Below, one piece after another: positions 1-18,361 of a DNA stretch of 64,000 nt. Under the pieces are notes generated by a model. That model did no database searches. It worked only from the letters and a program-made list of their open reading frames with translations, and had not been told where the DNA came from. The stretch is taken from positions 1-64,000 of the forward strand of contig NZ_BGOW01000005.1 of assembly GCF_003851125.1 (NCBI RefSeq), read 5' to 3'. The DNA is from Sulfuriferula multivorans (GTDB taxonomy: Bacteria; Pseudomonadota; Gammaproteobacteria; Burkholderiales; Sulfuriferulaceae). Positions within the stretch are counted from its first letter, which is position 1. Each line of letters begins with the position of its first letter. Position numbers and translations under genes: made by a program.

Positions 1-98
1 CGGGCTGTACTACTTTGCGTTTGGTCATGGTTTTCCTTTGGAGGTGGCAGTCTCCTGCCTAATGACCGTTTACACAAAATTATTTACACCCTCAATTC
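1..98 (-). mobile_element. Terminal end of an insertion sequence (IS256-like), with transposase start
   Basis: Read on the minus strand, a terminal sequence beginning GAGGGTGTAAATAATTTTG near position 93 is followed by a small hairpin and a ribosome binding site (AAAGGA). An ATG at 28-26 then opens the frame MTKRKVVQP, which runs off the window. A terminal repeat followed within about 65 nt by a basic transposase-like N-terminus is the layout of IS256/mutator-type elements. The family assignment is from memory of such ends, not from a search. The element interrupts the kinase reading frame at about 92-94, so this is one boundary of an inserted element whose body lies outside the window. Confidence 0.5.
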
Positions 99-646
99 CA
101 ACAGTCAAATCGGCTCCTACCAAGAACCCCCTCCAAGTCATCAGCGACCCATTCCATGGCGATGTAGTGCTCGTCGGTGTCCTGGTCGAATCCCGAATCG
201 AATATCTGGACTATATTTGGATGTTGGAGGTCGGAAAGCGCTTGTGTCTCTCGTCGAAATGATTCTTCGACAACTGGGTCAGTACCGCCTATCGGACGGA
301 AAACCTTGAGCGCAACATGCTGTTCTTCCTGGGTATCAAACGCCCGATAAACTGAAGCGATGCCTCCTGAACGCGGCTCCCCGCTAATTAAATAGCGACC
401 ATCAGCCAACAGTCTCTTATTGGTTTCTTTCTTATTCTTTATCCCGCTCAACGTCAGCGTTTCTTTTTGGGCGCTCAATCTTAATTCTCCTTGTCCAATT
501 CGATTTCTGTTGAACTGAAATCTCAGATATCTATTTACATCAATCCAAGTTTCCAGAGGTAAGCCCATCCCACGTCCAACACCAACCACCGGGTGCGGTA
601 GAGGCGTTCCAAGCCGCCGGTACTGGCCAGAGGGTTCGGAATTCAC
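92..646 (-). pseudogene. Serine/threonine protein kinase, N-lobe only, cut by an insertion sequence
   Basis: The 184-residue frame carries the N-lobe of a Hanks-type kinase: a degenerate glycine-rich loop (EPRSGGIASVYRAFD), the ATP-binding lysine (VALKVF), a helix-C glutamate (ESFRRETQALSDL followed by HPNIV) and the hinge (YIAMEWV). The catalytic HRD loop and DFG motif are absent, because the frame meets a stop exactly where the terminal sequence of an insertion element begins. The first 80 residues are not kinase-like and the true start may be an internal Met near residue 27. It follows the coiled-coil ATPase gene by 18 nt in the same direction and was probably the last gene of the defence operon. 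PglW of phage-growth-limitation/BREX type 2 systems is a precedent for a kinase in such loci. As seen it should be non-functional. Confidence 0.75.
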
Positions 647-664
647 TGAAGGCGTGTTCGTCGT

Positions 665-2641
665 TCATTCAAAAAGCTGCGGCAGCAAGCGTCGTTTGAA
701 GAGCAAATGCTCTTCTGCGCCTGGAAGTAACTCCAAAACAACGTACCGTGTTGTCTGAAGTGCTGCAGGTGGAGCGGAGGTTGTCGTCACGATGTATTGA
801 AACGGGACAGCCCCATCAGCAAACATCAACTCGGCTGCCTCTGCCGCAGTCAATAAGAATTCGCGATACAAGCGCTCGCTCATATCGGCCTCACGGGGGC
901 AATCGTGCACGGCAAACCCGGGATGATGGCTTTCTAGGGCGATCGCCGCGTCAAGCAGGCATGTCATGTCGCCAAGAAGCACTTCGAGAACCTGATAGGC
1001 TTCCCCGCCCACCGAAATCTCGAACGGATGGTCGTCGGATTCAGGAACGAATCTGCCATAGCCTTCCTCGCCGAGCAGCCTTGCGGCAATTGACCGGGTC
1101 AGCACTTTGAGGGCCTCTGCCCGTACAGAGTGCACTTGGTTTTGCTTGACCAAGGCAGTTTTCTTGGCGTTTAGCTCCTGAGTAAGCTTCTGTTGCTGGC
1201 TTCGTGCAAGCTCCAGTTCTCGGGAATCTTTCCCTCCGGCGCGAGCAGCGATACGCGGTTGCAAATCACCCCAAACCGATTTGAGGTAATCGCGCTGCGC
1301 CTCACTCGTGCCTATACGAACTTGGAGCCGCCGAATCTCTGCCTGCTTTGCGTTGACAAGAGAGACTTGGTGACGCAGCTCAGCGGTTGCTGCTTGTTCT
1401 GTCACCGTTGCCGCTTGCACTGCTGCCCTGAGCTTGGGTTTGTTGGCCTCGGCTTCACGCTGGCTGAGACGCCACGGCAAGCTAGGCGTGCTCCGGCGAC
1501 TGAGAATGTAGTCACATTTTGAAAAATCAACATCGCCATGGCGACAATGTCCTGCAAGATTTTCTAGCTGCTGTAACTCGGTCGTCAGGCGAATGTAATC
1601 CGCTTCGTTGGCGTCCAGCAAAGATTGAGCAATCTCCCGTTCCTTTTCACGAATCGCCGCCTCACGGCGGAGCGCTTCAAGCTCGACCAGCAACGGTGCC
1701 AAGTTCTCCTCTGCTGCTTCAGTTTCGCGTTCCAACGTGGTTTCGGCTCTCACGGCTTCAGCCAGTGCATCCGCCACCATCGACTGCAATGACGGCCCCA
1801 AAATCGTCTCTAAAACGGGCAAGTCGTCATCTGCCTTGAACTGCGCTCTAAGCTTTCGCTCTAAATGAGCCAGCTCAAAAATTGACTCGCGTTCCAATGC
1901 CTCTAATTCTTGCTCAAGGTTAATCAAGTCAGATTGTGCATGCTCCACCTCTCGCATAAGTCGGTCGGTATCGGCATCCAGCAAGCCCAACACAGTGTGG
2001 ACAAAAAGGGGAGGATCTTGCCTGGGCCGGCGAAACCCCAATCCGTCGCCATCGCGCCAATGGAAAAAACCATCGAAACGCGTCTTCTGGTCGCGAATAC
2101 ACCAGGCCAGCAGGTGACGCCATTCCAGAGTCTGGCTGCTGCCAGGTAGCGACGTAGCCGGCAGCTTGGCGATGAATGCCTCATGTAGTGCAGCCGAAAA
2201 TGCCGAGAAATCGCCATCCAACCCACCGGCGAGCAAGGATTCGAGCTCTTCTCCCTTACCCGCGCTAGAGTGACTATGCGTACCGTATGGACGGTAAACG
2301 AGCCACGTCGTCCCATCCACATGAACCTTGGCGGCTACGCCGCCCTTCGGAAAACCAGCCAGAGCCTTCTCGCGCAGCGACGATATCGACGGTGCCTCAT
2401 CGCCCAGGCAGTAACGAAGCAGCAGGCACAAGGATGTCTTGCCGACACCGTGCCCGGCGCTTGCCAAGCCCGAGGCCGCTTCGGATTCAGGTTCTCTCGC
2501 CCAAACAATATTCAGGCCCGGATGCAAATCAATGGTCCGAACGACAGCAAGAGGTTCCTTGGATTCAAGCAGCCATAGCCGCTCGATCCAGAGGCGCGGA
2601 AAGGATCGAGGCGTTGAATCAGCTTGTAACCAAGTTGCCAT
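665..2641 (-). CDS. SMC/RecN-like coiled-coil ATPase of the defence island
   Basis: 658 residues. A Walker A motif (GHGVGKTS, residues 63-70) follows an ABC/SMC-style opening (DLHPGLNIVWA). Long coiled-coil stretches rich in Glu, Ala and Leu occupy roughly residues 220-340 and 400-510. A C-terminal segment (GFAVHDCPREADMSERLYREF) sits where the Walker B/D-loop of DUF2326-like ATPases would be, with HDCP in place of a canonical DEP. The size and the head/coil/head plan match DUF2326 and the ABC-three-component ATPases found in defence islands. It lies 9 nt downstream of the methyltransferase gene and is followed 18 nt later by the interrupted kinase. The role is inferred from context: DNA sensing or bridging powered by ATP. 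The exact family is unconfirmed. Confidence 0.7.
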   Translation of the reverse strand: MATWLQADSTPRSFPRLWIERLWLLESKEPLAVVRTIDLHPGLNIVWAREPESEAASGLASAGHGVGKTSLCLLLRYCLGDEAPSISSLREKALAGFPKGGVAAKVHVDGTTWLVYRPYGTHSHSSAGKGEELESLLAGGLDGDFSAFSAALHEAFIAKLPATSLPGSSQTLEWRHLLAWCIRDQKTRFDGFFHWRDGDGLGFRRPRQDPPLFVHTVLGLLDADTDRLMREVEHAQSDLINLEQELEALERESIFELAHLERKLRAQFKADDDLPVLETILGPSLQSMVADALAEAVRAETTLERETEAAEENLAPLLVELEALRREAAIREKEREIAQSLLDANEADYIRLTTELQQLENLAGHCRHGDVDFSKCDYILSRRSTPSLPWRLSQREAEANKPKLRAAVQAATVTEQAATAELRHQVSLVNAKQAEIRRLQVRIGTSEAQRDYLKSVWGDLQPRIAARAGGKDSRELELARSQQQKLTQELNAKKTALVKQNQVHSVRAEALKVLTRSIAARLLGEEGYGRFVPESDDHPFEISVGGEAYQVLEVLLGDMTCLLDAAIALESHHPGFAVHDCPREADMSERLYREFLLTAAEAAELMFADGAVPFQYIVTTTSAPPAALQTTRYVVLELLPGAEEHLLFKRRLLPQLFE

Positions 2642-2650
2642 CGTGTCCTC

Positions 2651-5600
2651 TCAACCTACACCGCTGTCGCGTTCGCCCTGCTCGTTGCTTGACATGTCAG
2701 CGCTTTGAGCACGCCGCCGCTGCGCATCGAGTGCCAAGATCAAATCGGCCAATTCCGTTTGTACGGGACTCATTCGTACATCCGCCGGGATTGGATTGAC
2801 CCCCGGCCTGAACAGGGTTGTTTCACCTTTACGCTCTCGACGGACCGAACCACTCGCCTCCAGGCGCTCAACAAACTGTGGAATCAACGCCAGCGCCTCG
2901 GGCGAGGTCAGTGCAGTCATGCTCCCTACCAGTGACTGAAGCCGCTCGGCTTGTTTCGATTCAAGCAACAGTTCCGGGTAGCCGGTTCGCGTTGCGGAAG
3001 CAACCATCTCCTGCAACTCGGCAACGGAAATGCCCACCCCACACTGAGCGACCAGCGCAGCAACCAGCCCCGCCAGTTCGGCCTCGCTTTCGTTCCGGAT
3101 GACCGCAAGTTCAGAGTAAACAACCAAAACCCCATGATCCGGCAACACTGTGGGAACGAGCTCTCCCGACTCCAGCCTATCCCACGCCTCCAGCACCAGC
3201 CGCCGGGTGCGGTATTCGCCGAACTCACGCATCTCGCTGTTCTTGAGCACGCGGAAGGTTTCGCTGGGGTAGTCCTCGCCCATGACGTCAGCGGGGTCAA
3301 GGATGTAGCGGAGTTCGTCGCGGGTGATGCTGTAGAGGCGGGCGTACCAAGCGTCGAGTTCGGCGCGGATCTGGGCACGGCGCTCCGGGTTCCAGGCGAA
3401 GGGGGTAACCCGCTGGTCAGCCGGACGGGGGTCGTAGGCGGCGAGGTCGTCGGCCCAAGGCTTGAGATTGTGGGCGGTGTAGGTGAGTTCCAGCACGCGC
3501 GGGACGATGTAGGCGAGGTCGGCTTCGGTATAGCGGTCAGGGGGGAACACCGGGAACTGCTTAACTATGAAGAAGTTTAAGTTCGTTCCACCAATTTTCT
3601 GCCGTGCCACGAAGTCAAGAACCAAGGTTCCTAGGTTACCAATCAAAGCAGCCCAAGACCTTGCATTCCGTGTAGAAATCAATATTGGAAGGCTATTGCC
3701 AGCCGCAATGCGTGGCACTGCCGTAGCGATAAATGAACGCTCATTTGTCGCATTCGTAATGCCTCGAAAGCCCATCAACCAGCGGCGGCTACGGGCATCC
3801 ATCCAAGTGTCGAGCAAGACCAGCAGCGCCGCCGGTTCGGCGATGGCTTGGGCCAGGGTCGCAAGTTCCGCGTCGTTCAGCCCTACCTCGTCGTCCTGCA
3901 AGGCCCATTTACCGAACTCGATCAGGGCCTTTTTGCCGCTGATGTCAGCCGCCTTGAGCGCTTGCGCTAACGCCGGGAACCGCTGTACCAAACCCGCTTC
4001 GGCAATCTTTAGGCCTTGCAGGCGCTGGCGGCTGGACCAGTCGTCACCCTCTTCCGGCGCTCCGGCGGCGCGGCGAAACAGTTCGCCCGCCACCCAGGCG
4101 GCGATAGCGAACTGGAGTTTCTGCTCGTCCTCGGCTTGGTCGCTCGGACTGGCAATGTGCATGCCCAGCCAGGCGTTGGCCACCCGCGCCGGCACCCGGG
4201 CGATCCGGGCCAGCACCTCGCGCTCGTCTACCCAGTAGCGCGGGCGCACCACAAAGTCGGGTTCTGCCTTCTGGGCATCGGTGCAGTCTTCAGTGTCCAG
4301 ACCATCCGGCCTGGCAGGCGCGGCCACATAGGTGGCCCAGCGGTGGTCGAATTGGTGGATCATCTTGGCTTCGTATAGTGGCAAGCGCGGCGCTTCGCCG
4401 GGAGCGGCGGGCTCATCGCGGAACAGGCCGCTATCGTTGGACATGTCGAGCATCCGCATGAAACGGATGCCCCACGGATTCTTATCCGTTTCACCCTCCT
4501 CGATCAGTACCGGCGCTGCGCGGTAGAGCTTCTTGGTCAGCTCGGCGTCGCGCTGGCTGCGGAACACCGGGCAGGTGCGGGTGTTGGGGTTGATAAGGCG
4601 GAATTCGTCGGGGGTGAGGGTGAAGCGACGATGCTGGTCCCCGAGGTGCTCAACAGAAAGAGCGTAGTGAACCAGTTGCGCGGCTTCCGCCTTTGGCCCA
4701 AGTGTCACCAGCGCAAACGGCGTGTCTGGATGCACCGCAGGAAAGATTCGCTTGGCGTTATCGAAACCAAAGAAAGATGCAAGTCTGCCCGTTTGGGATA
4801 TGGCCTGAAAGAAATGCTTGGTTGAATCGTCAGTACCGAGGCCGGATTGCACAATAAAACCGGTACGTCCAGTGGGCGCTACAAGCTGGAAAAAACTCTC
4901 GGCAAACAAGGCATAGGTATTGACGTCGCCCACGCCGGTTAACGGGTAGCGGCCGCTATCATGGGCGTAGAGGCTGGCGGCCTCCGCACCACGTCGGGCG
5001 CTGATGAATTCCTCGTGCAACCGCATCTCGGCCCGATTGGGCGGGCTCAATCCTTCGGCAGCTTCCACGTCCGGGAACAGGGTGTGCAGCAGGAGGCCTT
5101 GTTGCAGCCATTCGATGCGCTGGCCGCGTTCGGCTTTGTTTTTGGCCATGGCCACTAAAGGGCTGCGGGCGGCAAAGAATTCTTCTTCCTGCAACTTGAT
5201 TCGCTCCCAAGGTGGATTGCCCAGCATGACCGAGAAGCCACCCCGAGCCCGCACTTGGGGAAAGGCCAGCCACCAGTGGAACACGCCGTGCGCGCGGCAG
5301 AGTTCCTGGGCCGCGTTGTCCACCTCGGGCTTGCTCTGCCCACCGTTGATGATGCCCCACAGATAGCCGGACAGGGGGATGTGCGGCGCGTCCTGGGGTA
5401 GTTTGGGGGCGAGAAAAGCAGCGACATAGGTGTCCGCCAGGTGTGCCAGGATGCTGTGCCGCGCCTGGTCGGCTGCCTGTGCCCAAGCGGCGCGTTTGGC
5501 CTCGATGCCGGCAAGGCTGTCGTCGGCCAGATGTTCGACTGCATCAGCTTGGGTGGCCAGATCGGTCTTGGTAAACAGGTCGCCGGCGGTGATAGCCTGC

Positions 5601-7612
5601 CAGCTTTTGAGATCGGCCTTGTTCTGTTTTTTCAGTGCACTGGCGGTAGCTTTATCGTCGCCAGAGAGTGCAGCGTAGGCTTCATCAGGAATACCGTTTT
5701 CCAGCACCTTGGGATCGAGCACGCCGAGTAGCGCGTCGCCGACTTGCAGGTGGTGGTCGAGGAAGCTGAGCGGCATGTCAGGCGTATAGGCCTCCAGCCA
5801 CAACGCAGTCTTGGCCAGGGCAATGGCCATGGGGTTCTTGTCGACGCCAAAGATGCAATGGCTGACCACATCACGCAGGGCGTGACGGTAGTCGGCCTGA
5901 CTAGGCGCGCCACTGGGGGCGCGGAGCTTGGCGACTTCGTCCGCCAAGCGACGGGCGGCGGCGAGCAGAAAATGGCCAGATCCGCAGGCAGGGTCGCAGA
6001 TGGTGATGTCGAGTAGGGCTTCCACTGGGCGTTGCGGATTCGCCCGCAGGGTGCCGGCAATGACCGGCTCCAGCGCGGACTGGATAAGTTCCTGCACTAG
6101 AGGGTCGGGGGTGTAGTAGCTGCCGGTGAGCTTGCGGGTGTTACCGCGGGTGGAAGCGGTGGTGTCATCGTCGCCCACAAACGCCAGCCGAGCGGCATGC
6201 GCCTGAGTGAGGTTTTGCAGATCGGGCACCAATTCCAGGAGACTTTCGTAGACGCTGCCGAGTTCTTCCGGGCCCATGTCGCGGTAATTGACGCGGGTGA
6301 GGCCAGTGGGCTCGCGGAAGTAGCCGAGCTGGAAGATGGCAGCAAGCAGCCAGCGATTTTCGATCTGGGCAGCGCCGAGGTGGGCGCACTGGTCGGCATC
6401 GAACAGCCCGCCCAGCGCAGGCAATGCCAGTGCCGGTTCCCCCCGCCCAAGGGCATCGAAGGTGATGGACAGGGCCTGCCAGAGATCGCTGTGGGTGTCG
6501 AAGCCGCTGCGGCGAGCAGCGCGCTCGCGCAGCCAGGTGAGCGAATAGCCGGCGAGATAGCGCTGCTGGACGTCCTTGGGGCTGTTGGGAGTAAAGATGA
6601 GCGGCAGGCCGGTGGCGCCTTCGGTGCGGTCTTCCACGGTGGCTAGGAAAATAAGGCGATAGACCAAGCGCAGCAGTTCTTCGAAGAAGGCCTGTTTGGA
6701 CAAGCCGTTTTCCTGTTGCAGTGCTTGGCGCAGGGCGTTGTTGTCGCGGTGGCTGAGGAAGCCGGTGCCGAGCGCCCTTAGCGCCTCGGCGACGCCGTCG
6801 CGCAGACGATCTCGGGCACGCACGCCGGCTTCCTGACCGGCATTGCGCCAGCGTTCCCATGCGCAGTCGGCGGGGTCGAAAGGCGCCCCAGCTCCGCTCC
6901 CGCCCTGCGCAGAAGAAGCACCCGCAAAACGGCTGGCATGCGCCAGCAGCCAGAACGCAACGAAGTCGGCGTACAGCTCTTCGGTGAAGATGGCCTCGAG
7001 GTCGATTTCCACATAGACCGGGCGGGTGAGGCTGGGGTTGTCACGCAGGATGCGGAGGCGCAGACCATTGCTAACCACGGCCCAAAGCGCGTCATCCGAG
7101 GCGTTGAGGGCTTCCTGCGCCAGCATGAAGGGGGAACGGCGACGGACCTTGCCGGTTTCCGGGTTCGTCTCGCCAAAACGATCATCCGGCACATCCAGCC
7201 CCTGGTTGTGGGCAGCCAAGATGAGGGGCACGCGCCCGCCACCGGAGAGATGGTCGATGTTGTAAGTGTGGCCCGAGGCATGGATGCGCGCGCTCTCCTC
7301 CAGATCAGTAAATCCCAGGACGCTGCGAAGCAACGGCAGCAGGAATTCGCGCAGGGTGAGGTTGTGGGCATTAATGTCGGTGCGCTGACGCTGCGTCTGA
7401 AAGTCAGTCCAAAGGTTCTGGGCGATCTTCCAGTAGCGAGCAACCTCGTCACGCAGTTTGAGGCCACGGGGAATGCTGTAATGATTTTCGGTCTGCTCGG
7501 TTTTGTCGGGAGTTTGCAGGCTGGTGAGGCGCGCAAGTTCGTCGGCGGGGATCAGGCCGCCTTCTATACGGATGGCCTGATAGCCAAGCTGGGTGGTGGA
7601 GCGACGCGCCAT
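2651..7612 (-). CDS. Large Eco57I/PglX-like adenine-specific DNA methyltransferase of a DISARM-like locus
   Basis: 1653 residues. N6-adenine methyltransferase motif I (DPACGSGHFL, about 540-549) and motif IV NPPW (799-802) are intact. A specificity and C-terminal region of about 800 residues follows. The N-terminal 230 residues contain WAVVSNGLRLRIL and VYVEIDLEAIF, which resemble the N-terminal module of type IIG/IIL enzymes. I see no certain PD-ExK nuclease residues, so nuclease activity is not claimed. The length is above that of most type IIG enzymes and in the range of PglX/DrmMI-type enzymes. It sits 3 nt downstream of the SNF2 helicase gene and 9 nt upstream of the ATPase gene. It probably marks host DNA so that the system spares self. 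Alternative: a type IIG restriction-modification enzyme recruited to the locus. Confidence 0.85.
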   Translation of the reverse strand: MARRSTTQLGYQAIRIEGGLIPADELARLTSLQTPDKTEQTENHYSIPRGLKLRDEVARYWKIAQNLWTDFQTQRQRTDINAHNLTLREFLLPLLRSVLGFTDLEESARIHASGHTYNIDHLSGGGRVPLILAAHNQGLDVPDDRFGETNPETGKVRRRSPFMLAQEALNASDDALWAVVSNGLRLRILRDNPSLTRPVYVEIDLEAIFTEELYADFVAFWLLAHASRFAGASSAQGGSGAGAPFDPADCAWERWRNAGQEAGVRARDRLRDGVAEALRALGTGFLSHRDNNALRQALQQENGLSKQAFFEELLRLVYRLIFLATVEDRTEGATGLPLIFTPNSPKDVQQRYLAGYSLTWLRERAARRSGFDTHSDLWQALSITFDALGRGEPALALPALGGLFDADQCAHLGAAQIENRWLLAAIFQLGYFREPTGLTRVNYRDMGPEELGSVYESLLELVPDLQNLTQAHAARLAFVGDDDTTASTRGNTRKLTGSYYTPDPLVQELIQSALEPVIAGTLRANPQRPVEALLDITICDPACGSGHFLLAAARRLADEVAKLRAPSGAPSQADYRHALRDVVSHCIFGVDKNPMAIALAKTALWLEAYTPDMPLSFLDHHLQVGDALLGVLDPKVLENGIPDEAYAALSGDDKATASALKKQNKADLKSWQAITAGDLFTKTDLATQADAVEHLADDSLAGIEAKRAAWAQAADQARHSILAHLADTYVAAFLAPKLPQDAPHIPLSGYLWGIINGGQSKPEVDNAAQELCRAHGVFHWWLAFPQVRARGGFSVMLGNPPWERIKLQEEEFFAARSPLVAMAKNKAERGQRIEWLQQGLLLHTLFPDVEAAEGLSPPNRAEMRLHEEFISARRGAEAASLYAHDSGRYPLTGVGDVNTYALFAESFFQLVAPTGRTGFIVQSGLGTDDSTKHFFQAISQTGRLASFFGFDNAKRIFPAVHPDTPFALVTLGPKAEAAQLVHYALSVEHLGDQHRRFTLTPDEFRLINPNTRTCPVFRSQRDAELTKKLYRAAPVLIEEGETDKNPWGIRFMRMLDMSNDSGLFRDEPAAPGEAPRLPLYEAKMIHQFDHRWATYVAAPARPDGLDTEDCTDAQKAEPDFVVRPRYWVDEREVLARIARVPARVANAWLGMHIASPSDQAEDEQKLQFAIAAWVAGELFRRAAGAPEEGDDWSSRQRLQGLKIAEAGLVQRFPALAQALKAADISGKKALIEFGKWALQDDEVGLNDAELATLAQAIAEPAALLVLLDTWMDARSRRWLMGFRGITNATNERSFIATAVPRIAAGNSLPILISTRNARSWAALIGNLGTLVLDFVARQKIGGTNLNFFIVKQFPVFPPDRYTEADLAYIVPRVLELTYTAHNLKPWADDLAAYDPRPADQRVTPFAWNPERRAQIRAELDAWYARLYSITRDELRYILDPADVMGEDYPSETFRVLKNSEMREFGEYRTRRLVLEAWDRLESGELVPTVLPDHGVLVVYSELAVIRNESEAELAGLVAALVAQCGVGISVAELQEMVASATRTGYPELLLESKQAERLQSLVGSMTALTSPEALALIPQFVERLEASGSVRRERKGETTLFRPGVNPIPADVRMSPVQTELADLILALDAQRRRAQSADMSSNEQGERDSGVG

Positions 7613-7615
7613 GGC

Positions 7616-10453
7616 TTATGCCCCCGCCTCGGCCGGGACCAGCACATAGACGCCCATGATGTCGACAGGCAGGCTGGCTGTGACTTGATAGGAGCCTTTG
7701 GCTTCTGCGGCATCACGCACCCGGCGGTGGTCTTGGAGCAAAGTCTGGGCGCGTTCATGGGCAAGGTTTTCCAGCTGGCCCTGCCAATCTGGGATGGCCT
7801 GCAAGGCTTGCTTGATGTGTAAGTCGCGCACCGGCGGTGGCATGTTGCGCACCGCTTCGGCGCCAAGTAAAGCTTGGGTTTGTTCGGGCGTGAGCACTTC
7901 GGGCGAGGCAGATCCAGAAACGGCGATGGCGATGGTTTCCTCGCACAACATCAGGCGAGTGCCGGCTTCGCGGATGACACTGAGCTGATGGCGCAGGCGC
8001 AGCAGCAGTACGGTGGTCTTGAGGCTGACGTTGCCAACAAACGCGGCGCCGGCGCGAGCGACGGCATCCGCATCGCTGGTCTCAGCGGCGGACTCCAGCG
8101 CCCGCTCAAGCAGCGTGTCGGCCAGCGCCACAACCAGCGGGTGGGTGCGCTGAATGAAGTGCGCACCCTGTGCGGCGGGCTGGTGGAAGTCGATGCGCAG
8201 CGTGCCGGTGAGACCGTCGGCGGCAAGACGTTCGCGCACCGTGGCAGGCAGGTGGTCGAGGTAGAGCTTGTGGTGCTGCTTGTAGGGCTCAAGCGCGGCC
8301 CCCAGCTTGGCGACGGCGCGGCTGACGAAGCGTTCGACGTCGTCCTCGCCCCCGAGTACGGCGGCGGACTTACGCCATTCGGGCAGCACGTCCTCCGGCT
8401 TCAGACGGCGCTGGGAAAAGATGGAGCGGTTTTTGGCGGCCTTTTCGCGGACGCTCTGCCAGGCGGTTTCGATTTCCTCGGCAGGCTCACCAAAATCAAA
8501 CATCGCCTGAGCCTTGTTGCCGATGGCATTGTGCTTGCGCATCAGCACCGCATTGAGCAGCGCCTGTGTGAGCTTGCCCTCGTTGTCGGGCATGGGCACC
8601 AGCACGCCCAGTTCTTTGCGGATGCTCTCGGCCTTGCGCAGGATGACTTGCAACACGGCGCCATCGACCGGGTTGTCTTCGCCGTAGAGAATGGTGCTGC
8701 GCACCTCGGGCTCTTTCTGGCCAAAACGATCGACTCGGCCTTCCCGTTGCTCGTGACGGGTAGGGTTCCACGACAGGTCATAGTGGACGACGGCGGAGAA
8801 GAGATGCTGCAGGTTGATGCCCTCGGACAGGCAGTCGGTGGCCACCAGGATGCGCTTCTCGGTATCACTCATTTCTTCAATCGCCGCCTCACGCTCACCT
8901 GAGGTTAGTTCGCCGGTGACGGCCTTGATGGTGACGTCTCTGAACTTGCCGCGAAGGAACTCGGCCAGGTAATGCGCGGTGGCAATGTAGCGACAGAACA
9001 CCACGGGCTTGAAACCCTCTTTGATCAGGGCGACCAGGTGATCCTGCAGTTTGGTGAGTTTAGGATCATTGGCGGCGCCAGCCAGGCTCTCGGCGGCGAC
9101 AATGAGCTCCCGCAAGCGAGCGCTGTCTTCCGTCTGAGCGGCAGGTTCGATGTCGTCGGTAGATAGCGCGTCGTCGAGGCCGTCGAGCACGCGGTCACCG
9201 GCCTGGGCTTCGATGTCATCGAGTGTGAGTTCGTCACCCCCCGCCTCTTCCGAAGCGCCTTCGAGACGGGTGCGCAGTGCATTGACCGCTGCCGCCGGAG
9301 AAGAGGAAATACAGCGCAGCAAGGCCAGGGCTGCCCACCAGTTCATGCGCTGTTCTCGCTGACCCCGGCCTTCGGCCCGTTCAACCAGTTCGCGGGCATA
9401 GTCCAGCACATCGTTGAACAGCTGCCCCCAGGCGCCGGTCAGGCGATAGGTCAACTCGGCGGTCTTGCGGTCGGGGAACATCGAGGTGTCCTGCCACTCG
9501 GCGATATCCGGGCGACGGCGCTGGACGAAGTGGCGCGAAAGATCGTCGCGCAAGTCCATGCGCGCGCCGGGCGGCAGATCCTTCAGCGCGGTGAATTCGG
9601 GGCGCAACAGGCCAAGCAGGTTGAAGAAGGCATCTTCGTCTCCACTGTGCGGAGTGGCCGTGAGCAGCACCATATGCCGGTTGGCGTCTTCTGCCAACCC
9701 CTTGAGCAGCTGGTAGCGCTGTTGGCGGCTCTGACCGCCTTGGGTGCAGGTGTGCGCCTCGTCAACGATGACGAATTCGGGGCAGAAGCGCTGGAAGGCT
9801 TCGCGGCGACGCTCGGACTTGATGTAGTCAAGGCTGACCACGGTGAAGGGATTGGCGTCAAACACCGATGTGCCGGGCGGCAGATCGCGTTCGAGCCGGG
9901 CCGCCGAGGATGTGCGCACGATCACCGACTGGATATGAAAGCGCTCGGCCAGTTCGCGCTGCCACTGCTCGCACAGGTGAGGCGGACAGAGCACGGTGAG
10001 GCGCTGAATTTCGCCTCGGTCGAGCAGTTCGCGGGCTATCAAGGCGCCTTCGATGGTCTTGCCGATACCGACGTCGTCGGCGATCAGAAGGCGCACCGTG
10101 CCCAACTTCATCGCCATCAGCAATGGTACGAGCTGGTAGGCGCGTGGCTCGACGGCGATGTTTCCAAAACTGCGGAAGGGTCCGGCGCCATTGCGCAGCT
10201 TGAGCTGCAGGGCGTCCATCAGCAACTGGCTGGCGGCATGGTTGCGTGCCTGCTCGACCAGGGGCAACGGGAAGGTGGCCGGCTGAACCGGTTGGCGCTC
10301 CAGCGGCAGGAAGATAATGGATTCATCCTTCTCGCCACCGCCCAGAGGGCGCAGACGCAGGGTCTCGGCGGAGGATTCCGGCAAGACAATCCATTCTCGT
10401 CCGCGAGCCGAAACAAGACTACCGGGATAAAACTCGGGGGTGGGTGCGTTCAT
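7616..10453 (-). CDS. SNF2-family DEAD/DEAH helicase (DrmD/HepA-like)
   Basis: 945 residues with the full set of SF2/SNF2 motifs: motif I DDVGIGKTIEGAL (GKT at 131-133), motif II DEAH (231-234), motif III LTATPH, motif V ATDCLSEGINLQ and motif VI HEQREGRVDRFGQ. The architecture and length match the SNF2 translocases of class 1 DISARM (DrmD) and the RapA/HepA group. It begins 3 nt after the stop of the 1772-aa helicase gene and ends 3 nt before the methyltransferase gene, so the three are almost certainly co-transcribed. The expected role is ATP-driven translocation on or remodelling of double-stranded DNA. It could also be read as a generic HepA-like helicase, but the tight operon favours a defence role. 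Confidence 0.88.
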   Translation of the reverse strand: MNAPTPEFYPGSLVSARGREWIVLPESSAETLRLRPLGGGEKDESIIFLPLERQPVQPATFPLPLVEQARNHAASQLLMDALQLKLRNGAGPFRSFGNIAVEPRAYQLVPLLMAMKLGTVRLLIADDVGIGKTIEGALIARELLDRGEIQRLTVLCPPHLCEQWQRELAERFHIQSVIVRTSSAARLERDLPPGTSVFDANPFTVVSLDYIKSERRREAFQRFCPEFVIVDEAHTCTQGGQSRQQRYQLLKGLAEDANRHMVLLTATPHSGDEDAFFNLLGLLRPEFTALKDLPPGARMDLRDDLSRHFVQRRRPDIAEWQDTSMFPDRKTAELTYRLTGAWGQLFNDVLDYARELVERAEGRGQREQRMNWWAALALLRCISSSPAAAVNALRTRLEGASEEAGGDELTLDDIEAQAGDRVLDGLDDALSTDDIEPAAQTEDSARLRELIVAAESLAGAANDPKLTKLQDHLVALIKEGFKPVVFCRYIATAHYLAEFLRGKFRDVTIKAVTGELTSGEREAAIEEMSDTEKRILVATDCLSEGINLQHLFSAVVHYDLSWNPTRHEQREGRVDRFGQKEPEVRSTILYGEDNPVDGAVLQVILRKAESIRKELGVLVPMPDNEGKLTQALLNAVLMRKHNAIGNKAQAMFDFGEPAEEIETAWQSVREKAAKNRSIFSQRRLKPEDVLPEWRKSAAVLGGEDDVERFVSRAVAKLGAALEPYKQHHKLYLDHLPATVRERLAADGLTGTLRIDFHQPAAQGAHFIQRTHPLVVALADTLLERALESAAETSDADAVARAGAAFVGNVSLKTTVLLLRLRHQLSVIREAGTRLMLCEETIAIAVSGSASPEVLTPEQTQALLGAEAVRNMPPPVRDLHIKQALQAIPDWQGQLENLAHERAQTLLQDHRRVRDAAEAKGSYQVTASLPVDIMGVYVLVPAEAGA

Positions 10454-10456
10454 GTT

Positions 10457-13400
10457 TTATGCCGTGATGCCAGCGCCGAACAGGTCGGCGTAGGTAGAGA
10501 AAATTTCTGGCCAGGTACCCGTGTCTTTGGGGAACCGAACAATAAGGTAGCCCTGCTCTTCCAGGCGACGATTGATTGCGGCGTCCTTGGCCCGCTGGGA
10601 TTCGCTTTCGTGGTGCGGGCCGTCGATAAAGATTGCGAGTTGGTAGTCGTCGTAGAAGAAGTCGGCGCAAGTTTCGGCTTTAGTGATGGTGTGCTGGCCG
10701 CGATCCGGCTTGCGATGGCCATGTGCTTCCACATAAGCCAACCAGGCTTGTTCCAGAGTGCTGCCGGAGACGCGTGCCAGCTCGGAGCTGTGCTGGTCAG
10801 GTGCACGCCCCTGGGTGCCCTGCCTGGTCTGGGCAGCGGTGAGCCGACAGAGCATGTCGAGCACCAAGCCATCGGCCTCCTTGTCCTTGCGGTCAATAAG
10901 CGGGTGGTCGGGCTGGTTGTAGTAGGAAAGCAGGCACTTGTAGCAACCGGCCTCGCAGAGGGGCTGACCGTTGACATCGGCCTCTTCGATCAAACCCACC
11001 TTGGTCCAGGGCTGGCCTGCTGGTGGTGGCTGAAAGTGCATGATTTCCAGTGCTTCTGCCGCAACCGCCGTCAGGGCTTGGGGTTCGCTGGCGAGGCGGG
11101 TGAGCACGCCCGCGCCACCTTCAGCCGCTTCGTAGAACAGGATGGACTGGCGTGCATCACGGGTGGGCAGTGGCTCGGCCATGAGCTCGCTTTCTTCGAG
11201 CTGATAGACCGATTCGATGCCGCGCTTGAGTGCGTATTGCAGGGTGGTCAGGGACGTTGCCGAAAGCTGGCCGAACTTGCTGTGAGGGCGAACGATGAGG
11301 ATGTTGCGACGGTCTTCCACGTAGGGGACGATGCGCTGGGGCGGGGTTCTGTCCGGCGGGGCATTTTCATCTCCCTCTCCTTCGCTTTCATCGACCCCGC
11401 CAACCCAGTGGCCGGTGACCGGATTGATCATGAATCCCAGCACCGACTTTTCCTTGCGACGGCGCCAGCCGAAGTTCATGCGCCACACGGTAGCAGCGGA
11501 GCCATACTGGAGTTCCAGCAGAGGGCCGGCGGCATCCGCGACCACGCAGGTGACCATCTGCGGTTTGCCGTCGACTTCGGCGAATTGCAGCGTGGTCTGC
11601 ATCTCGTAGCCCTGGCGGACGCGCTCTTCCTCGTTGGCGGTAATACGCTCCGCCCGTTTGGTGGAGACGTTCTCGATGCGATAGAGATTCTTCACCTCCT
11701 CGGCGTTGGCCAGGGAAGCACCGCAGGATACGCAGCAGTCGGCGTCACGCTGCGAGCGGAAATGGCCGTAACCACAGGCCGGACAAAGGCGCGCGACTTC
11801 GGTGGATAGCTTGGCACCCTCGGCGACCTGATCCTGGCTGGTGATGGCGAGCAGAGCCTTGATGACGCGGTATTGGCTACCCTCGTGATAGATGAGGCTG
11901 TAGGGGCCAAACTCGCTTAGCGCCAGGAAACGTGGGCGGGAAAGGAATCTTTCGCGCCCGATGTTGCCCCGGCGCGCCGGGATGTACGCCATCAAGGGCA
12001 AGCGGGGAAAGTTGTAACCCGGCAGGAAACCTTGGCTAGCCAGGTAGCGGTAAGTGTAGAAGTCGCTGTTGAACGCGCTGTCGCCTGCTAACAGCAGGTC
12101 GCGCTGTTTGCGCGCCTCATTATGGCGTTGCTGTGCTTCGCGCCGCTCGCGCTCGCTGGCAGCCGGGTTGTTCTCGATCTTGAAATTGAGCTCGATCTGG
12201 CGGGCGGTGGCTCGGTAGAGGTCTCGCCAGCGTTTGAGGGAATCATCCAGTTCCTTATAGGCGCGCTGGAATACCGTCTCCGACCATGTCTCGGTGAACC
12301 AGGGTGCACGCTCGGGCGTGAGTTCATCCTTCAGCATGGCCAGAACGGCGAGGCCACGCTTGTGAGCGCGCTTCTTGGCATCAGGCTTGTCGAGATCGGT
12401 CAACAGCTCTTCCAGAATCGGAAGGGCATCGGGCTGATTCATGTCGAGCAGGTCACGGATGCTGTTACCCAGCCGTTTGCTGGTTTCCGCCAACCAGATG
12501 GCGTGCATGTGGCTTTGCACCAGTTCGCGGTTGGCCAAGTCGAGCGTGGGTGCCTTGACCTGTCCGTGCACCATCTTCACCGGGTCGCGGAAGTAATACT
12601 GATCGTGCGGACTCTGGTTGGCACAGTAGGTGATGACCAGCGCAGGTTGGCCCGCACGACCAGCCCGGCCGCTGCGCTGGGCATAGTTGGCGGGCGTGGG
12701 TGGCACGTTGCGCATATACACGGTGTTAAGCGAGGCGATATCCACACCCAGTTCCATGGTCGGCGAACAGAACAGAACCGGCAGCCACTCCAGTTCGCTG
12801 CCATGCTTCTCACGCCATTCCTTGCGATCCTTCTCGGTGAAACGGAAACGCGCCTCACGCTCCATGCGGTCGTCCTGCTCGACCTGGGCGGTGTGCTCCC
12901 GCGCCTCGAATTCGAAAAGTTGGTGGACGGGGTTGGAAAGCAAGCCTGCAATATTCCGGTAAAGGCCGCGAAAGAAGGTGTTGTCATTGGATTGTTTGGG
13001 GCTGGCGCCCTCCCCCTCGATCCACAGAAGCGCGGAGCCATTCAGCTGCCACCCCATCAGACCGGCATCGGTGTCTTCCTTGCGCACCAGGCCATAGCTT
13101 TCTGCCGCCTTGAGCAGAGCCCCGATAACTTGAGGGTAGGAAGCGTCATTGATCTGGCGGGCGTAGGGATTACCCCCGCCCCAGGTGCTGGCTTTTTTCA
13201 GTTCGCGCCCTAGACGGGAGCGGCTGGAACCAATGACTAAGTATTCCTCGATTTTGTTCTTGCGTCCGCGAGGCCCGCCGTCTTCACGCGGGCGGCTGGT
13301 AACAAACCACTTGGCAGGAACGGGGCGCTCGTCTTCTGTGAAACCCCAAGGCTCACGCAGATTGGCGTAGCTCTGGGTGCGAAGCTGGTCTAGCTCGGCT

Positions 13401-15775
13401 CGGTCAAGGTAGCGGGTGGCAATACACAATCCTTGGCGCATGGTTTCGAACAAAGCGCGCAGGACCTTGGCGCGTTCGGCTGGCTTGGCAGCTTGCAATA
13501 CAGCGGGAGACTCGGCCCACTCCGCTTCATCGGCGGCAAGGTCGTCGATGTCCTGATAGACAATGCGCACCAAGCCAAGCTGTTCCAGGTTGGGGTTGTT
13601 GAAACGCCAGCCACGCCGCAGGTCAAAAAAGCTGCGGTAGCCGAGGATGGCGCGCATGGCGTCCTGTACCTGGCGGCGGTTGTTGCCCTTGACCTCGGGC
13701 TGTTGCATGTATTCACCCCGTACAACTGGGTCGTCCCGAAGGAAGCCAAGCGCCTCGAATACCGCATTGGCCACCTCTTTTTCAGTAAGGGGATGGGCGC
13801 TGTTCTGTATGGCGGACAACAACGCTGCGCGCATCAACAGCACTTGCACAAAATCGTTGAAGTGTCCGGCTTGAAGGGCTGCGTCTTGACGGTTATCGGA
13901 GAAGCCCAGGACCTTTTTGGCATCAGCGCTGAGCTGTTGATCCTGTTCGTAGAGATAACGCAGCGATGACAGCGTGAGCATGGTCGTTGCAGAACTACGA
14001 CCCTCACCTGATAGTGACGTCAGACGCAATGAATCCTTGCCAGAGGTGGTATGGATAGCGCCGCAATTGAGACAGAAACGGAAGCCACCGGGGATGAACC
14101 AGGCATTTAGCCCGCCTTGGGTGGTTGTCACGCCGTCGGGGCGCACCCTGGCTGGCTGGGGAACAAATTTCCTGTAGGCGGATTTGATGCGCCACTCACC
14201 GTCGGCACGCTCTTCAATCCAGTTTTCCGGAAGACGCTCTACGGCTTCGTCCCACACGTTCCCGGCATCGGGCATGAGAAAACCAAATTTGACGCCCTCA
14301 TCATCGTGCTGGCGTTCGCCGATATCCCTGCGCTCGAAGGCACTGCCTCCTACTCCATCGGTATCCCATACGGGAACGTATTCCTGCCCGCAGTCACGGC
14401 AGAAATGGACGTTGTAAAGGAGACGGCTCCGGTCACCGGCGACAAACTGCTGCCCATCCAGCGTGATGTGGCGTTTACCCGGTTCTTCGAGGGTGGCGTA
14501 GACCTTGCCGCCCCCCGAAATGAACTGGTGCAACTTGAACGCAAAGAGGGAATTACCAGAGGCATTCTTGACGTTGTATGCACGCAGCAGAAACTGTTGC
14601 AGGAAGGTATTGCACGTTTCCTCGTCCAGACCTGATGCTTCGGCCAACTGCTTTGCAGCCTGTTTCAGCGTCTTGGGCTTGGCCCGGCGGGGTTTGCCAC
14701 TTTCGTAATCCAGTCCAAGCGTCATTTCCACCCATACCGATACGGGGTGCTTGGCCATCTCCTCGTGAGTCTGGCTCTGAGGTACACCTGCCTGTATCGC
14801 TCCCGCCAATCTGGGGGCCACCGTCAACGCGGTTTCATCTTCGGGTGTGGTACGGCGCAGGGTCTCGGTAATGATGTTTCGGTCGGGAATCGGTACCCCG
14901 AATAAGCGGGTGGCTACGCGCGCAACAGCGGCATTGCGCTCCATTTCCGTACCGTCGGTAGCCATGGTGGCAGACGTACCGATACATATCAGCCTGTCAG
15001 TCAGAGCCTCACGCACACGGCGTACCAGCAAGGCAACATCGGCTCCCTGCCGACCCCGGTAGGTATGGAGTTCGTCGAGTACCAAGAAGCGCAGTCCCTT
15101 GGCATTGCGCATAACGGTCTTGTCGATGTCGTTCTGCCGCGTCATCAGCAGTTCTAGCATCATGAAGTTGGTCAGCAGAATGTCCGGCGGGTTGGCGGCC
15201 ATGGCCTGGCGCTCTTCGTCGCTTTCCTGGCCGGTGTAGCGGCCAAAGGTCACCAAGCGTGAGGTGGTGTCACTGCCCAGAAATTTCTTGAGTTCTTCCA
15301 ACTGGCTGTTGGCCAGAGCGTTCATCGGGTAGACAACAATGGCACGCGTGCGTGGCGTGGGGTCCGTTTCCTTGACCTTGAGGCAGGCGTCAACGATGGG
15401 AATGAAATAGGCCAATGATTTGCCGGAACCCGTCCCGGTGGTTAGGACGTAACTTTCGCCCGCAGCGGCCAGACTGATGGCCTCTTCCTGATGCCTGAAA
15501 AGCTTGAGGGGGGAGCCCTGCGAAGCAGCGGTCTTCCCGGACCGAAAAATCTCCGCACATTTAGGATGAATATTTCCTGCTTGAACAAGCTCCTCTACTG
15601 AATGACCTGCCTTGAAGTTTGGATTGACCTGAATCAGTGGCGCTGGCCAGTAGCGCTCGGAATTATATGTTTCGTCGATAAAATTGGAGATGTCGGACGC
15701 CAGAATGCGAGTAAAGCTACGCGTAAAGTCGGAATAATCACTGACAAGCTTTTCCCTGAACTCAAAGACATCCAT
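10457..15775 (-). CDS. Giant DEAD/H helicase with DUF1998-like zinc region and C-terminal endonuclease-like domain (DrmA-DrmB or DruE-like)
   Basis: 1772 residues. RecA-like domain 1 has Walker A TTGTGSGKS (112-120), motif Ia (VVYPMNALANSQ) and the DELH box (234-237). RecA-like domain 2 has motif VI QRSGRAGRAGQP and is separated from the first by an unusually long insert. Near the C-terminus are a four-cysteine cluster (CPACGYG and CCVSCGAS) and the DUF1998/MZB zinc signature CEAGCYKCLLSYY (from about 1607). The last 100 residues contain YQLAIFIDGPHH and EQGYLIVRFPKD, which resemble the core strands of Vsr/DUF559-type endonucleases. In class 1 DISARM the helicase (DrmA) and DUF1998 protein (DrmB) are separate. 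A single chain of this size is also seen in Druantia DruE. It is the first gene of the operon. The helicase call is firm; the system name is an inference. Confidence 0.88.
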   Translation of the reverse strand: MDVFEFREKLVSDYSDFTRSFTRILASDISNFIDETYNSERYWPAPLIQVNPNFKAGHSVEELVQAGNIHPKCAEIFRSGKTAASQGSPLKLFRHQEEAISLAAAGESYVLTTGTGSGKSLAYFIPIVDACLKVKETDPTPRTRAIVVYPMNALANSQLEELKKFLGSDTTSRLVTFGRYTGQESDEERQAMAANPPDILLTNFMMLELLMTRQNDIDKTVMRNAKGLRFLVLDELHTYRGRQGADVALLVRRVREALTDRLICIGTSATMATDGTEMERNAAVARVATRLFGVPIPDRNIITETLRRTTPEDETALTVAPRLAGAIQAGVPQSQTHEEMAKHPVSVWVEMTLGLDYESGKPRRAKPKTLKQAAKQLAEASGLDEETCNTFLQQFLLRAYNVKNASGNSLFAFKLHQFISGGGKVYATLEEPGKRHITLDGQQFVAGDRSRLLYNVHFCRDCGQEYVPVWDTDGVGGSAFERRDIGERQHDDEGVKFGFLMPDAGNVWDEAVERLPENWIEERADGEWRIKSAYRKFVPQPARVRPDGVTTTQGGLNAWFIPGGFRFCLNCGAIHTTSGKDSLRLTSLSGEGRSSATTMLTLSSLRYLYEQDQQLSADAKKVLGFSDNRQDAALQAGHFNDFVQVLLMRAALLSAIQNSAHPLTEKEVANAVFEALGFLRDDPVVRGEYMQQPEVKGNNRRQVQDAMRAILGYRSFFDLRRGWRFNNPNLEQLGLVRIVYQDIDDLAADEAEWAESPAVLQAAKPAERAKVLRALFETMRQGLCIATRYLDRAELDQLRTQSYANLREPWGFTEDERPVPAKWFVTSRPREDGGPRGRKNKIEEYLVIGSSRSRLGRELKKASTWGGGNPYARQINDASYPQVIGALLKAAESYGLVRKEDTDAGLMGWQLNGSALLWIEGEGASPKQSNDNTFFRGLYRNIAGLLSNPVHQLFEFEAREHTAQVEQDDRMEREARFRFTEKDRKEWREKHGSELEWLPVLFCSPTMELGVDIASLNTVYMRNVPPTPANYAQRSGRAGRAGQPALVITYCANQSPHDQYYFRDPVKMVHGQVKAPTLDLANRELVQSHMHAIWLAETSKRLGNSIRDLLDMNQPDALPILEELLTDLDKPDAKKRAHKRGLAVLAMLKDELTPERAPWFTETWSETVFQRAYKELDDSLKRWRDLYRATARQIELNFKIENNPAASERERREAQQRHNEARKQRDLLLAGDSAFNSDFYTYRYLASQGFLPGYNFPRLPLMAYIPARRGNIGRERFLSRPRFLALSEFGPYSLIYHEGSQYRVIKALLAITSQDQVAEGAKLSTEVARLCPACGYGHFRSQRDADCCVSCGASLANAEEVKNLYRIENVSTKRAERITANEEERVRQGYEMQTTLQFAEVDGKPQMVTCVVADAAGPLLELQYGSAATVWRMNFGWRRRKEKSVLGFMINPVTGHWVGGVDESEGEGDENAPPDRTPPQRIVPYVEDRRNILIVRPHSKFGQLSATSLTTLQYALKRGIESVYQLEESELMAEPLPTRDARQSILFYEAAEGGAGVLTRLASEPQALTAVAAEALEIMHFQPPPAGQPWTKVGLIEEADVNGQPLCEAGCYKCLLSYYNQPDHPLIDRKDKEADGLVLDMLCRLTAAQTRQGTQGRAPDQHSSELARVSGSTLEQAWLAYVEAHGHRKPDRGQHTITKAETCADFFYDDYQLAIFIDGPHHESESQRAKDAAINRRLEEQGYLIVRFPKDTGTWPEIFSTYADLFGAGITA

Positions 15776-18151: not shown

Positions 18152-18361
18152 TTTGGCCTCTGAACGCCTTGATGACATTAGCATTCAGCATGTTAGCACA
18201 AGATGGCGGAGAGGGCGTCTGACTAAGCCAGCTACACCCATATCCACACAAGTACACAAACGTTTGATTAATATTAATTAAAAATCCACCGAGGTACAGC
18301 ATCGTCCATTTACTTTCAGCCCAATCCAAGTTACCGTTGTGGGTAGAAAAGGGGGTAAAGA

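Follow-up and report, generated by a model that had tools for sequence, protein, structure and literature searches.

A probable ARMADA Type I anti-phage operon with a Rad50/LmuB-like ATPase and embedded cargo in Sulfuriferula multivorans

Introduction

The closest described relative of the locus studied here is the ARMADA Type I system. According to the main text of a recent preprint (Bell et al. 2025, PMC12458937), in Type I a YprA helicase that ends in a Vsr nuclease comes first, and a BrxHII-like helicase and then a PglX-like methyltransferase generally come after it; the features given there for the helicase include a BrxA-like insert and a zinc-binding beta-barrel. The same text reports that ARMADA Type II has the order BrxHII, PglX, YprA, and RelE-GajB-like helicase, that it protects without host shutdown, and that all four of its genes are required. 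We analysed a 64-kb stretch of the draft genome of Sulfuriferula multivorans (3.6 Mb in 87 contigs) that begins with an operon of this kind. The stretch, hereafter the window, is the first 64 kb (positions 1 to 64,000) of the 88.8-kb contig C5 (NZ_BGOW01000005.1).

In our view the locus is probably an ARMADA Type I anti-phage operon from an ATPase-bearing sub-lineage, extended by cargo. It resembles Type I in having a YprA helicase with a fused DUF1998 region and a C-terminal Vsr domain, then a BrxHII-like helicase, then a PglX-like methyltransferase. Unlike Type I as published, it also has a Rad50/LmuB-like ATPase, a tail domain on the methyltransferase, a terminal HNH gene, and embedded cargo. 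The core belongs to the published class; the module made of ATPase and tail, together with a slot for inserted genes, makes the operon a variant. The main text of Bell et al. names no kinase, SMC, Mokosh, or reverse transcriptase for Type I, and HNH occurs in its reference list only. We found neither the ATPase nor the tail nor the slot described for ARMADA in the literature searched, as far as the consulted text goes (including PMC12458937, PMC12255303, PMC8565338, PMC11090510, PMC10586767, PMC12988326, and PMC12629846); the supplements of Bell et al. may list such neighbours.

Results

The first three genes match ARMADA Type I

Five open reading frames (ORFs) lie on the minus strand, with successive gaps of 3, 3, 9, and 18 nt, just as an initial annotation of the DNA had reported. 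Its domain calls also hold: they are a DUF1998-type helicase, an SNF2 helicase, an Eco57I/N6-MTase, an ATPase whose predicted model shows the long helices of a coiled coil, and a protein kinase. The first gene of the operon (10457–15775, minus strand) encodes a 1772-aa YprA-family, ArmC-like helicase in which Pfam matches to DEAD (E-value 8.5e-27), Helicase_C (3.2e-9), and MZB (4e-9; the MZB/DUF1998 region) fall on one protein, so that the DrmA- and DrmB-type parts are indeed joined, as that annotation had proposed. At the C-terminus (10460–10678, minus strand) lies a Vsr/DUF559-type PD-(D/E)xK nuclease domain, identified by a DUF559 match of 20.8 bits (Pfam cut-off 20.6) and by a Vsr motif that is conserved in the alignment across relatives; nuclease activity is predicted for it. 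The relatives of this protein are 33–53% identical to it across most of their length. Counting one segment per pair, its best local match covers 216 columns in the E. coli ARMADA II ArmC and 234 in DruE. A tree of 32 YprA-type proteins, built without a published reference for Type I, has a branch that separates 27 Type I-like rows from one ArmC II, one DruE, and two DrmA, with a support of only 46. The protein likely belongs to the Type I clade.

The second gene (7616–10453, minus strand) encodes a 945-aa SNF2/RapA helicase identified by PADLOC and Pfam, which is ArmA-like and resembles DpdE (PADLOC 2.6e-209), DrmD (7.3e-87), and BrxHII (4.8e-67). It is followed by a gene (2651–7612, minus strand) for a 1653-aa PglX/DrmMI-like, ArmB-like protein, an adenine DNA methyltransferase of the Eco57I/N6-MTase kind by Pfam, with PADLOC matches to DrmMI (9.5e-58) and PglX (2.5e-12). 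None of the six proteins scanned with NCBIfam gave a match above the curated cut-off. Judged by their sequences, the first three genes match ARMADA Type I in content and order. This gives a name to the DISARM-related arrays of recent literature to which the initial annotation had thought the locus might belong. That annotation had also suggested a scan with models of named systems; by their PADLOC and Pfam matches, these three genes show Type I content and order, and the ATPase, the HNH gene, and the cargo are extra to it.

Other systems fit less well. The gene order is not that of ARMADA Type II and differs from the operon of E. coli ATCC 8739. DISARM class 1 shares DrmD-like and DrmMI-like genes with our locus, but here the DrmA and DrmB parts form a single fused protein and DrmC is absent: no DrmC family is among the matches listed for the window proteins, and none of the five genes encodes a DrmC-type PLD protein, as already pointed out in the initial annotation (a weak DrmC match, 4e-4, falls on the MkoB described below). 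The same annotation had seen a Druantia-like part in the giant helicase. DruE matches it piecewise (best 4.2e-91), and no other Dru family is among the matches listed for eight window proteins, which argues against a Druantia system.

An eight-gene operon with two broken Mokosh genes

Mokosh type I consists of MkoA, a kinase fused to a helicase, followed by the PLD-like MkoB, in agreement with the PADLOC names. The fifth ORF (92–646, minus strand) encodes 184 aa of a protein kinase. Contig C5 starts at window base 1, where the operon is cut: the contig breaks inside an insertion sequence (IS), whose left end, recognised by its end sequence, occupies positions 1–93 on the minus strand. A 21-base piece of this end recurs at 11 genomic sites, none of them more than ~91 bases from the end of a contig; copies of the IS that splits mkoA are thus where the draft assembly breaks. 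The kinase C-lobe is found at the start of contig C64, which opens in the opposite end of such an IS and has the same 8-bp target duplication as C5 (94–101, with the second copy at the other flank on C64). The matches to the MkoA profile are complementary, covering positions 5–111 on C5 (5.1e-18) and 123–1109 on C64 (5e-204). By this profile, the 184-aa kinase is an N-terminal MkoA fragment, the 5' part of mkoA truncated by the IS. The MkoB gene (PADLOC 3.6e-56) comes next on C64 and runs into a second, different element, and a C-terminal MkoB remnant exits the matching end of that element on contig C18, with a 4-bp duplication in common. We take the elements to be of the IS256 (the one at 1–93, from its ends and the 8-bp duplication) and IS5 families.

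Contig C18 continues with a GmrSD gene (Pfam GmrSD_N 2.1e-30; PADLOC HEC-05 2.9e-36) and, 8 nt downstream, an HNH nuclease gene. The next long ORF is on the opposite strand and points at the HNH gene. Given this ORF and the continuation over C64 and C18, the operon spans eight genes, both Mokosh genes being broken: YprA helicase-nuclease, SNF2 helicase, methyltransferase with a winged-helix tail, Rad50/LmuB-like ATPase, MkoA, MkoB, GmrSD, and HNH nuclease. Open frames are kept in this strain for the ARMADA genes, the ATPase, GmrSD, and HNH, although the two insertions may also reduce the expression of the last two. The Mokosh genes are thus like those of Mokosh type I in being matched by both PADLOC models, and unlike them in being cargo within an ARMADA operon, each split by an insertion sequence.

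The initial annotation had read the kinase as a Pgl/BREX-type part and had seen in the locus a distinct composite system in which this kinase is paired with the ATPase. Such a pair was suggested by a protein-kinase domain encoded on the same strand 18 nt after the ATPase gene. We consider it highly improbable. The kinase continues as MkoA on C64, with MkoB behind it, and PADLOC gave neither PglZ nor PglW among the matches listed for eight window proteins, which also sets the locus apart from Pgl/BREX type 2. A context-free scan of species genomes with the ATPase returned 257 relatives; we kept the best 80, which represent 77 loci (labelled with L hereafter). The initial annotation had suggested a survey of whether ATPase and kinase genes recur beside homologues of the 1772-aa protein; in this survey, made through the ATPase, an MkoA match follows the ATPase in just 2 of the 77 loci (L037 and L069), some of which end soon past the ATPase. 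The ATPase is an extra component that recurs, as shown below, and the pair does not hold. Provided that C5 and C64 adjoin, the split of MkoA over them refutes the composite system here and rules out the Pgl/BREX identity. A reading of a single contig can misassign a part, as it did with this kinase. In Rhodoferax (L037), the genes after the ATPase are S39, MkoA, MkoB, GmrSD, and HNH, which is the order of our genome with S39 in front.

A Rad50/LmuB-like ATPase recurs behind modification and specificity genes

The fourth gene (665–2641, minus strand) encodes a 658-aa coiled-coil ATPase that matches LmuB in PADLOC (1.6e-12) and has no Pfam match at E 0.001. Its Walker A motif is GHGVGKT, and two cysteines, 366 and 376, lie mid-coil. 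After discarding three loci in which the ATPase ORF is not intact (L055, L067, L100), we retained 74, of which 72 have at least 1 kb of upstream sequence. The two mid-coil cysteines are invariant in all 74 aligned rows, and in every one of them the Walker B Asp is followed by Cys or Ser, never by Glu. The predicted model (mean predicted local distance difference test score, pLDDT, of 86.7) has long helices. Its top-ranking structural match is 9a6c_A, a YydD-YydB model (Z 31.8, root-mean-square deviation [rmsd] 24.0, 493 aligned residues), and it also matches LmuB 9uxh_F (Z 26.5, rmsd 17.6, 458 aligned) and Rad50 3av0_B (Z 21.8, rmsd 7.4, 342 aligned). These traits—a coiled-coil ATPase of ~650 aa with a mid-coil Cys pair, no Glu after the Walker B Asp, and a nuclease gene nearby—are those of Lamassu and ABC-3C systems in the consulted text of a review (PMC10586767). 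That text describes zinc hooks and a change from Glu to Gln for LmuB, unlike the Cys or Ser found at this position here. Most of our loci further differ from Lamassu by the lack of a separate LmuC gene, the fusion of a winged-helix part to the protein encoded upstream, and a setting that resembles restriction-modification (R-M).

The nearest upstream gene on the same strand encodes a methyltransferase or an HsdS core in 65 of the 72 loci, when the tail described in the next section is removed from the query. The gap between the two genes is 2–17 nt in 56 of 71 loci; there are 11 overlaps, possibly caused in part by the choice of start codon. A looser count (68/72 with a methyltransferase or HsdS within 1.5 kb upstream) was superseded, since the shared tail gave spurious matches. 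For the same reason L072 is no longer classed as HsdS: its label came from the tail, it has no match once the tail is removed, and PADLOC identifies a Type IIG-like fragment. Besides this locus, those outside the 65 are L098 (Type III restriction enzyme), L097 and L101 (methyltransferase one gene further up), and L083, L104, and L106 (none found). When classed by their neighbours, 47 of the 74 loci are ARMADA, 3 are DISARM, 16 show a methyltransferase while their remaining genes are truncated or ambiguous, and what is left are one-off cases. The DISARM loci L099, L080, and L076 have the same ATPase after DrmMI, in the order DrmD, x, DrmMI, ATPase, DrmA, DrmB, and DrmC in L099; L088 has the order HsdR, HsdM, HsdS, and ATPase. 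The ATPase was found in 1 of the 61 genomes of a sample of relatives (its own) and in 2 of the 369 genomes of a class sample, where 12 have a YprA protein match at 1e-30. Judged by these counts, it is an uncommon gene that ARMADA I operons do not share in general.

The ATPase is tied to a methyltransferase tail

The methyltransferase ends with a winged-helix tail (residues 1486–1653; 2654–3157, minus strand) that is supported by a tail profile, an alignment, and a predicted model. ATPase-bearing ARMADA methyltransferases have ~60–230 residues past window residue 1486, against 0–34 in the 15 rows without ATPase; three of the latter (L129, L139, L147), being cut or broken proteins, were left out of the pair test below. 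Using 41 sequences, we trained a profile on nothing but the tail; at a threshold of E < 1e-3, this profile matched 27 of the 31 untrained genes directly upstream of an ATPase, in 25 cases with the match ending at most 40 aa from the C-terminus. It matched none of the 12 ATPase-less ARMADA methyltransferases. Among 630 other ORFs it hit only the methyltransferases of the ATPase-bearing L055, L067, and L097, and the next best E-value was 0.028. The tail is not restricted to ARMADA: it is present on the DISARM DrmMI of L099 (2.4e-8), L076 (5.7e-14), and L080 (2.5e-4), on the HsdS of L088 (1.1e-8), on the Type IIG-like proteins of L072 (1.7e-17) and L089 (1.6e-22), and at the C-terminus of the Type III restriction enzyme of L098, directly before the ATPase (3.6e-12), a fifth kind of host system. 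In L101, the match is on a separate ORF of 123 aa between the methyltransferase and the ATPase.

ATPase presence switches 7 times in the SNF2 tree of 71 rows. The tail follows the ATPase in 6 of 6 independent pairs when scored by length (p = 0.031), and in 5–6 of 6 when aligned residues are counted against a threshold of 90 (p = 0.03–0.06); the test measures association and not frequency, because it was the ATPase search that yielded most of the ATPase-bearing rows. The model of the tail (mean pLDDT 86.6) is a winged helix with 2esh as best match (Z 7.9, rmsd 2.6, 83 aligned). The match to ScpB 6juv_A (Z 6.8, rmsd 3.7, 91 aligned) is within the range of unrelated folds, and LmuC chains are among the weak Foldseek matches (E 0.22 and 0.29). 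Compared with PADLOC, the tail gives a single match at chance level (E 0.059), and with Protein Data Bank sequences none.

These results bear on the idea that the ATPase and the HNH nuclease form a Lamassu- or Septu-like system of their own, whose position behind ARMADA reflects nothing more than a shared defence island, with no functional tie to the methyltransferase. The ATPase does resemble LmuB, an ATPase with an HNH protein is the layout of Septu, and the parts come apart, as there are loci with a methyltransferase and HNH and no ATPase (L128, L133, L149). Against this idea, the gene next to the ATPase on its upstream side encodes such a methyltransferase or HsdS core in 65 of the 72 loci, mostly at the short spacing given above, and the tail on the upstream protein tracks the ATPase in all six independent pairs by length and also in the DISARM and the Type I, Type IIG-like, and Type III R-M settings. 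We therefore regard a separate system as unlikely.

A slot for cargo before the terminal HNH gene

We built a profile of the HNH family from 12 sequences and searched for it in same-strand runs, ignoring ORFs shorter than 110 aa. An HNH gene of this one family follows the ATPase in the same run in 31 of the 74 loci, adjoining it in 15 and after 1–4 genes in 16. The junction is rich in inserts: in raw counts, inserted ORFs (≥110 aa) occur between ATPase and HNH in 15 of the 24 measurable ARMADA loci, against 1/44 between YprA and SNF2, 3/44 between SNF2 and methyltransferase, and 2/47 between methyltransferase and ATPase (6/135 in sum). The 16 slot inserts, of which representatives were typed directly and the remaining members by similarity to them, include Drt1a-like, GmrSD, HEPN-RES, HEC-03B, PDC-S39, Mokosh, Lit-like, RNA ligase, Schlafen/AlbA-like, and UvrD-type genes. 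Most are of known defence families, and a few have no match (377 aa in L051, 314 aa in L062). The DrmA of L080 and L099 was rejected as cargo: DrmA, DrmB, and DrmC are the host system there, and the ATPase follows DrmMI.

The HNH gene also closes ATPase-less ARMADA I operons (L128, L133, L145, L147, L149), with a UvrD-type gene before it in L145, from Croceicoccus; in L131 and L132, which are ATPase-less too, McrBC takes its place. HNH presence showed no consistent association with ATPase presence in 9 pairs. One could see in this junction the ordinary accumulation of a defence island at the 3' end of an operon, the HNH genes being independent arrivals. Defence genes do cluster in general, and the stretch covered holds no HNH gene at L030, L032, L036, L038, and L040. 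We nevertheless find this explanation rather unlikely, in view of the rarity of inserts at the three upstream junctions, of the single HNH family that closes so many runs (co-direction being part of how runs are defined), and of its recurrence, with an insert in the Croceicoccus case, at the end of operons without ATPase. Defence genes embedded in defence operons are known, from Hma with HEC families to R-M operons with DarTG2 or PrrC, in the consulted text of PMC12255303, PMC12988326, and PMC12629846. The slot resembles these cases, and matches to the HEC-03B, HEC-05, HEC-06, and PDC-S39 models recur here; unlike them, it belongs to another host operon and lies between ATPase and HNH.

Two plasmid-borne, ATPase-bearing ARMADA I operons, in Paraburkholderia and Caballeronia (L027, L028), lack an HNH annotation; a short way past the ATPase, L027 has genes named TniB and TniQ. 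The Vsr motif is degenerate in the YprA C-termini of 25 of 73 loci (e.g. L024–L026, L056, L060–L070, L128, L133, L145), mostly where an HNH gene is present. Counting loci whose downstream region can be judged, HNH is present in 21 of the 24 that lost the motif, against 16 of the 42 that kept it. The pattern hints at a nuclease handover in trans. As a replacement of the Vsr domain by HNH it is suggestive only, since the tree gives just 3 changes and 2 independent pairs.

Discussion

How might such an operon work? By analogy with ARMADA II, the methyltransferase would mark host DNA, while the SNF2 and YprA motors would act on unmarked invading DNA, which the Vsr domain would cut. The SMC-like ATPase would dock on the tail, perhaps in the way that LmuB of Lamassu docks on LmuC. 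Sensing of foreign DNA ends or intermediates could then license a nuclease, most likely the HNH protein. Tail and ATPase would thereby form a Lamassu-like sensor-adaptor pair, coupling recognition by the upstream protein to the nuclease. The co-directional defence genes of the slot would be transcribed together with the ARMADA genes, adding a second layer, and may share their expression; in this strain, the Mokosh layer is broken by two insertions.

We tentatively extend this to a broader proposal, about which we have more doubts than about the assignment of the operon itself. The ATPase and the adaptor domain fused to the C-terminus of the preceding modification, specificity, or restriction subunit might be a portable two-part licensing module, with an SMC/LmuB-like ATPase, that was grafted onto ARMADA I, DISARM class 1, and Type I, Type IIG-like, and Type III R-M systems. 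It would turn the recognition of unmodified DNA into a signal for swappable downstream effectors, held in ARMADA in the slot before the terminal HNH nuclease. If this holds for the ATPase and its tail, it joins two principles that are usually treated separately, i.e. the methylation-based discrimination of R-M, DISARM, and ARMADA and the SMC-like structure sensing of Lamassu. The slot ahead of the HNH gene is also a concrete site in which to seek new defence genes.

Several points weigh against these interpretations. Bell et al. assayed ARMADA Type II and not Type I (main text, PMC12458937). Many ARMADA I operons lack the ATPase (14 tree rows were scored as ATPase-less), which is thus not essential to the family, and its Type I, Type III, and Type IIG R-M contexts amount to one to two loci each. 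The rmsd of the ATPase matches is large, coiled coils being flexible, and this limits the weight of the Z scores. The tail matches winged helices in a generic manner, with Z at best 7.9 and LmuC at the Foldseek E-values given above. HNH is missing from the uninterrupted run in 43 of the 74 ATPase loci, in some because the stretch covered is short. Finally, the links between C5, C64, and C18 are based on IS ends, target duplications, and gene continuity, and not on reads.

In our window, two divergent tyrosine recombinase genes lie just upstream of the operon (16445–18184, minus strand; 18362–19600, plus strand), one with DUF6538 and the other with phage-integrase domains according to Pfam; given this adjacent pair, the operon may be at the edge of an integrated element. 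On plasmids of Acidithiobacillus caldus, Deinococcus radiodurans MP1, and Kozakia, IS21 or IS630 elements lie within or beside the ARMADA I operons (L128, L132, L146). The G+C content of window positions 2001–12000, taken in five 2-kb steps, is 0.59–0.64, against 0.49–0.62 in the remaining window, which fits a foreign origin of the ARMADA genes.

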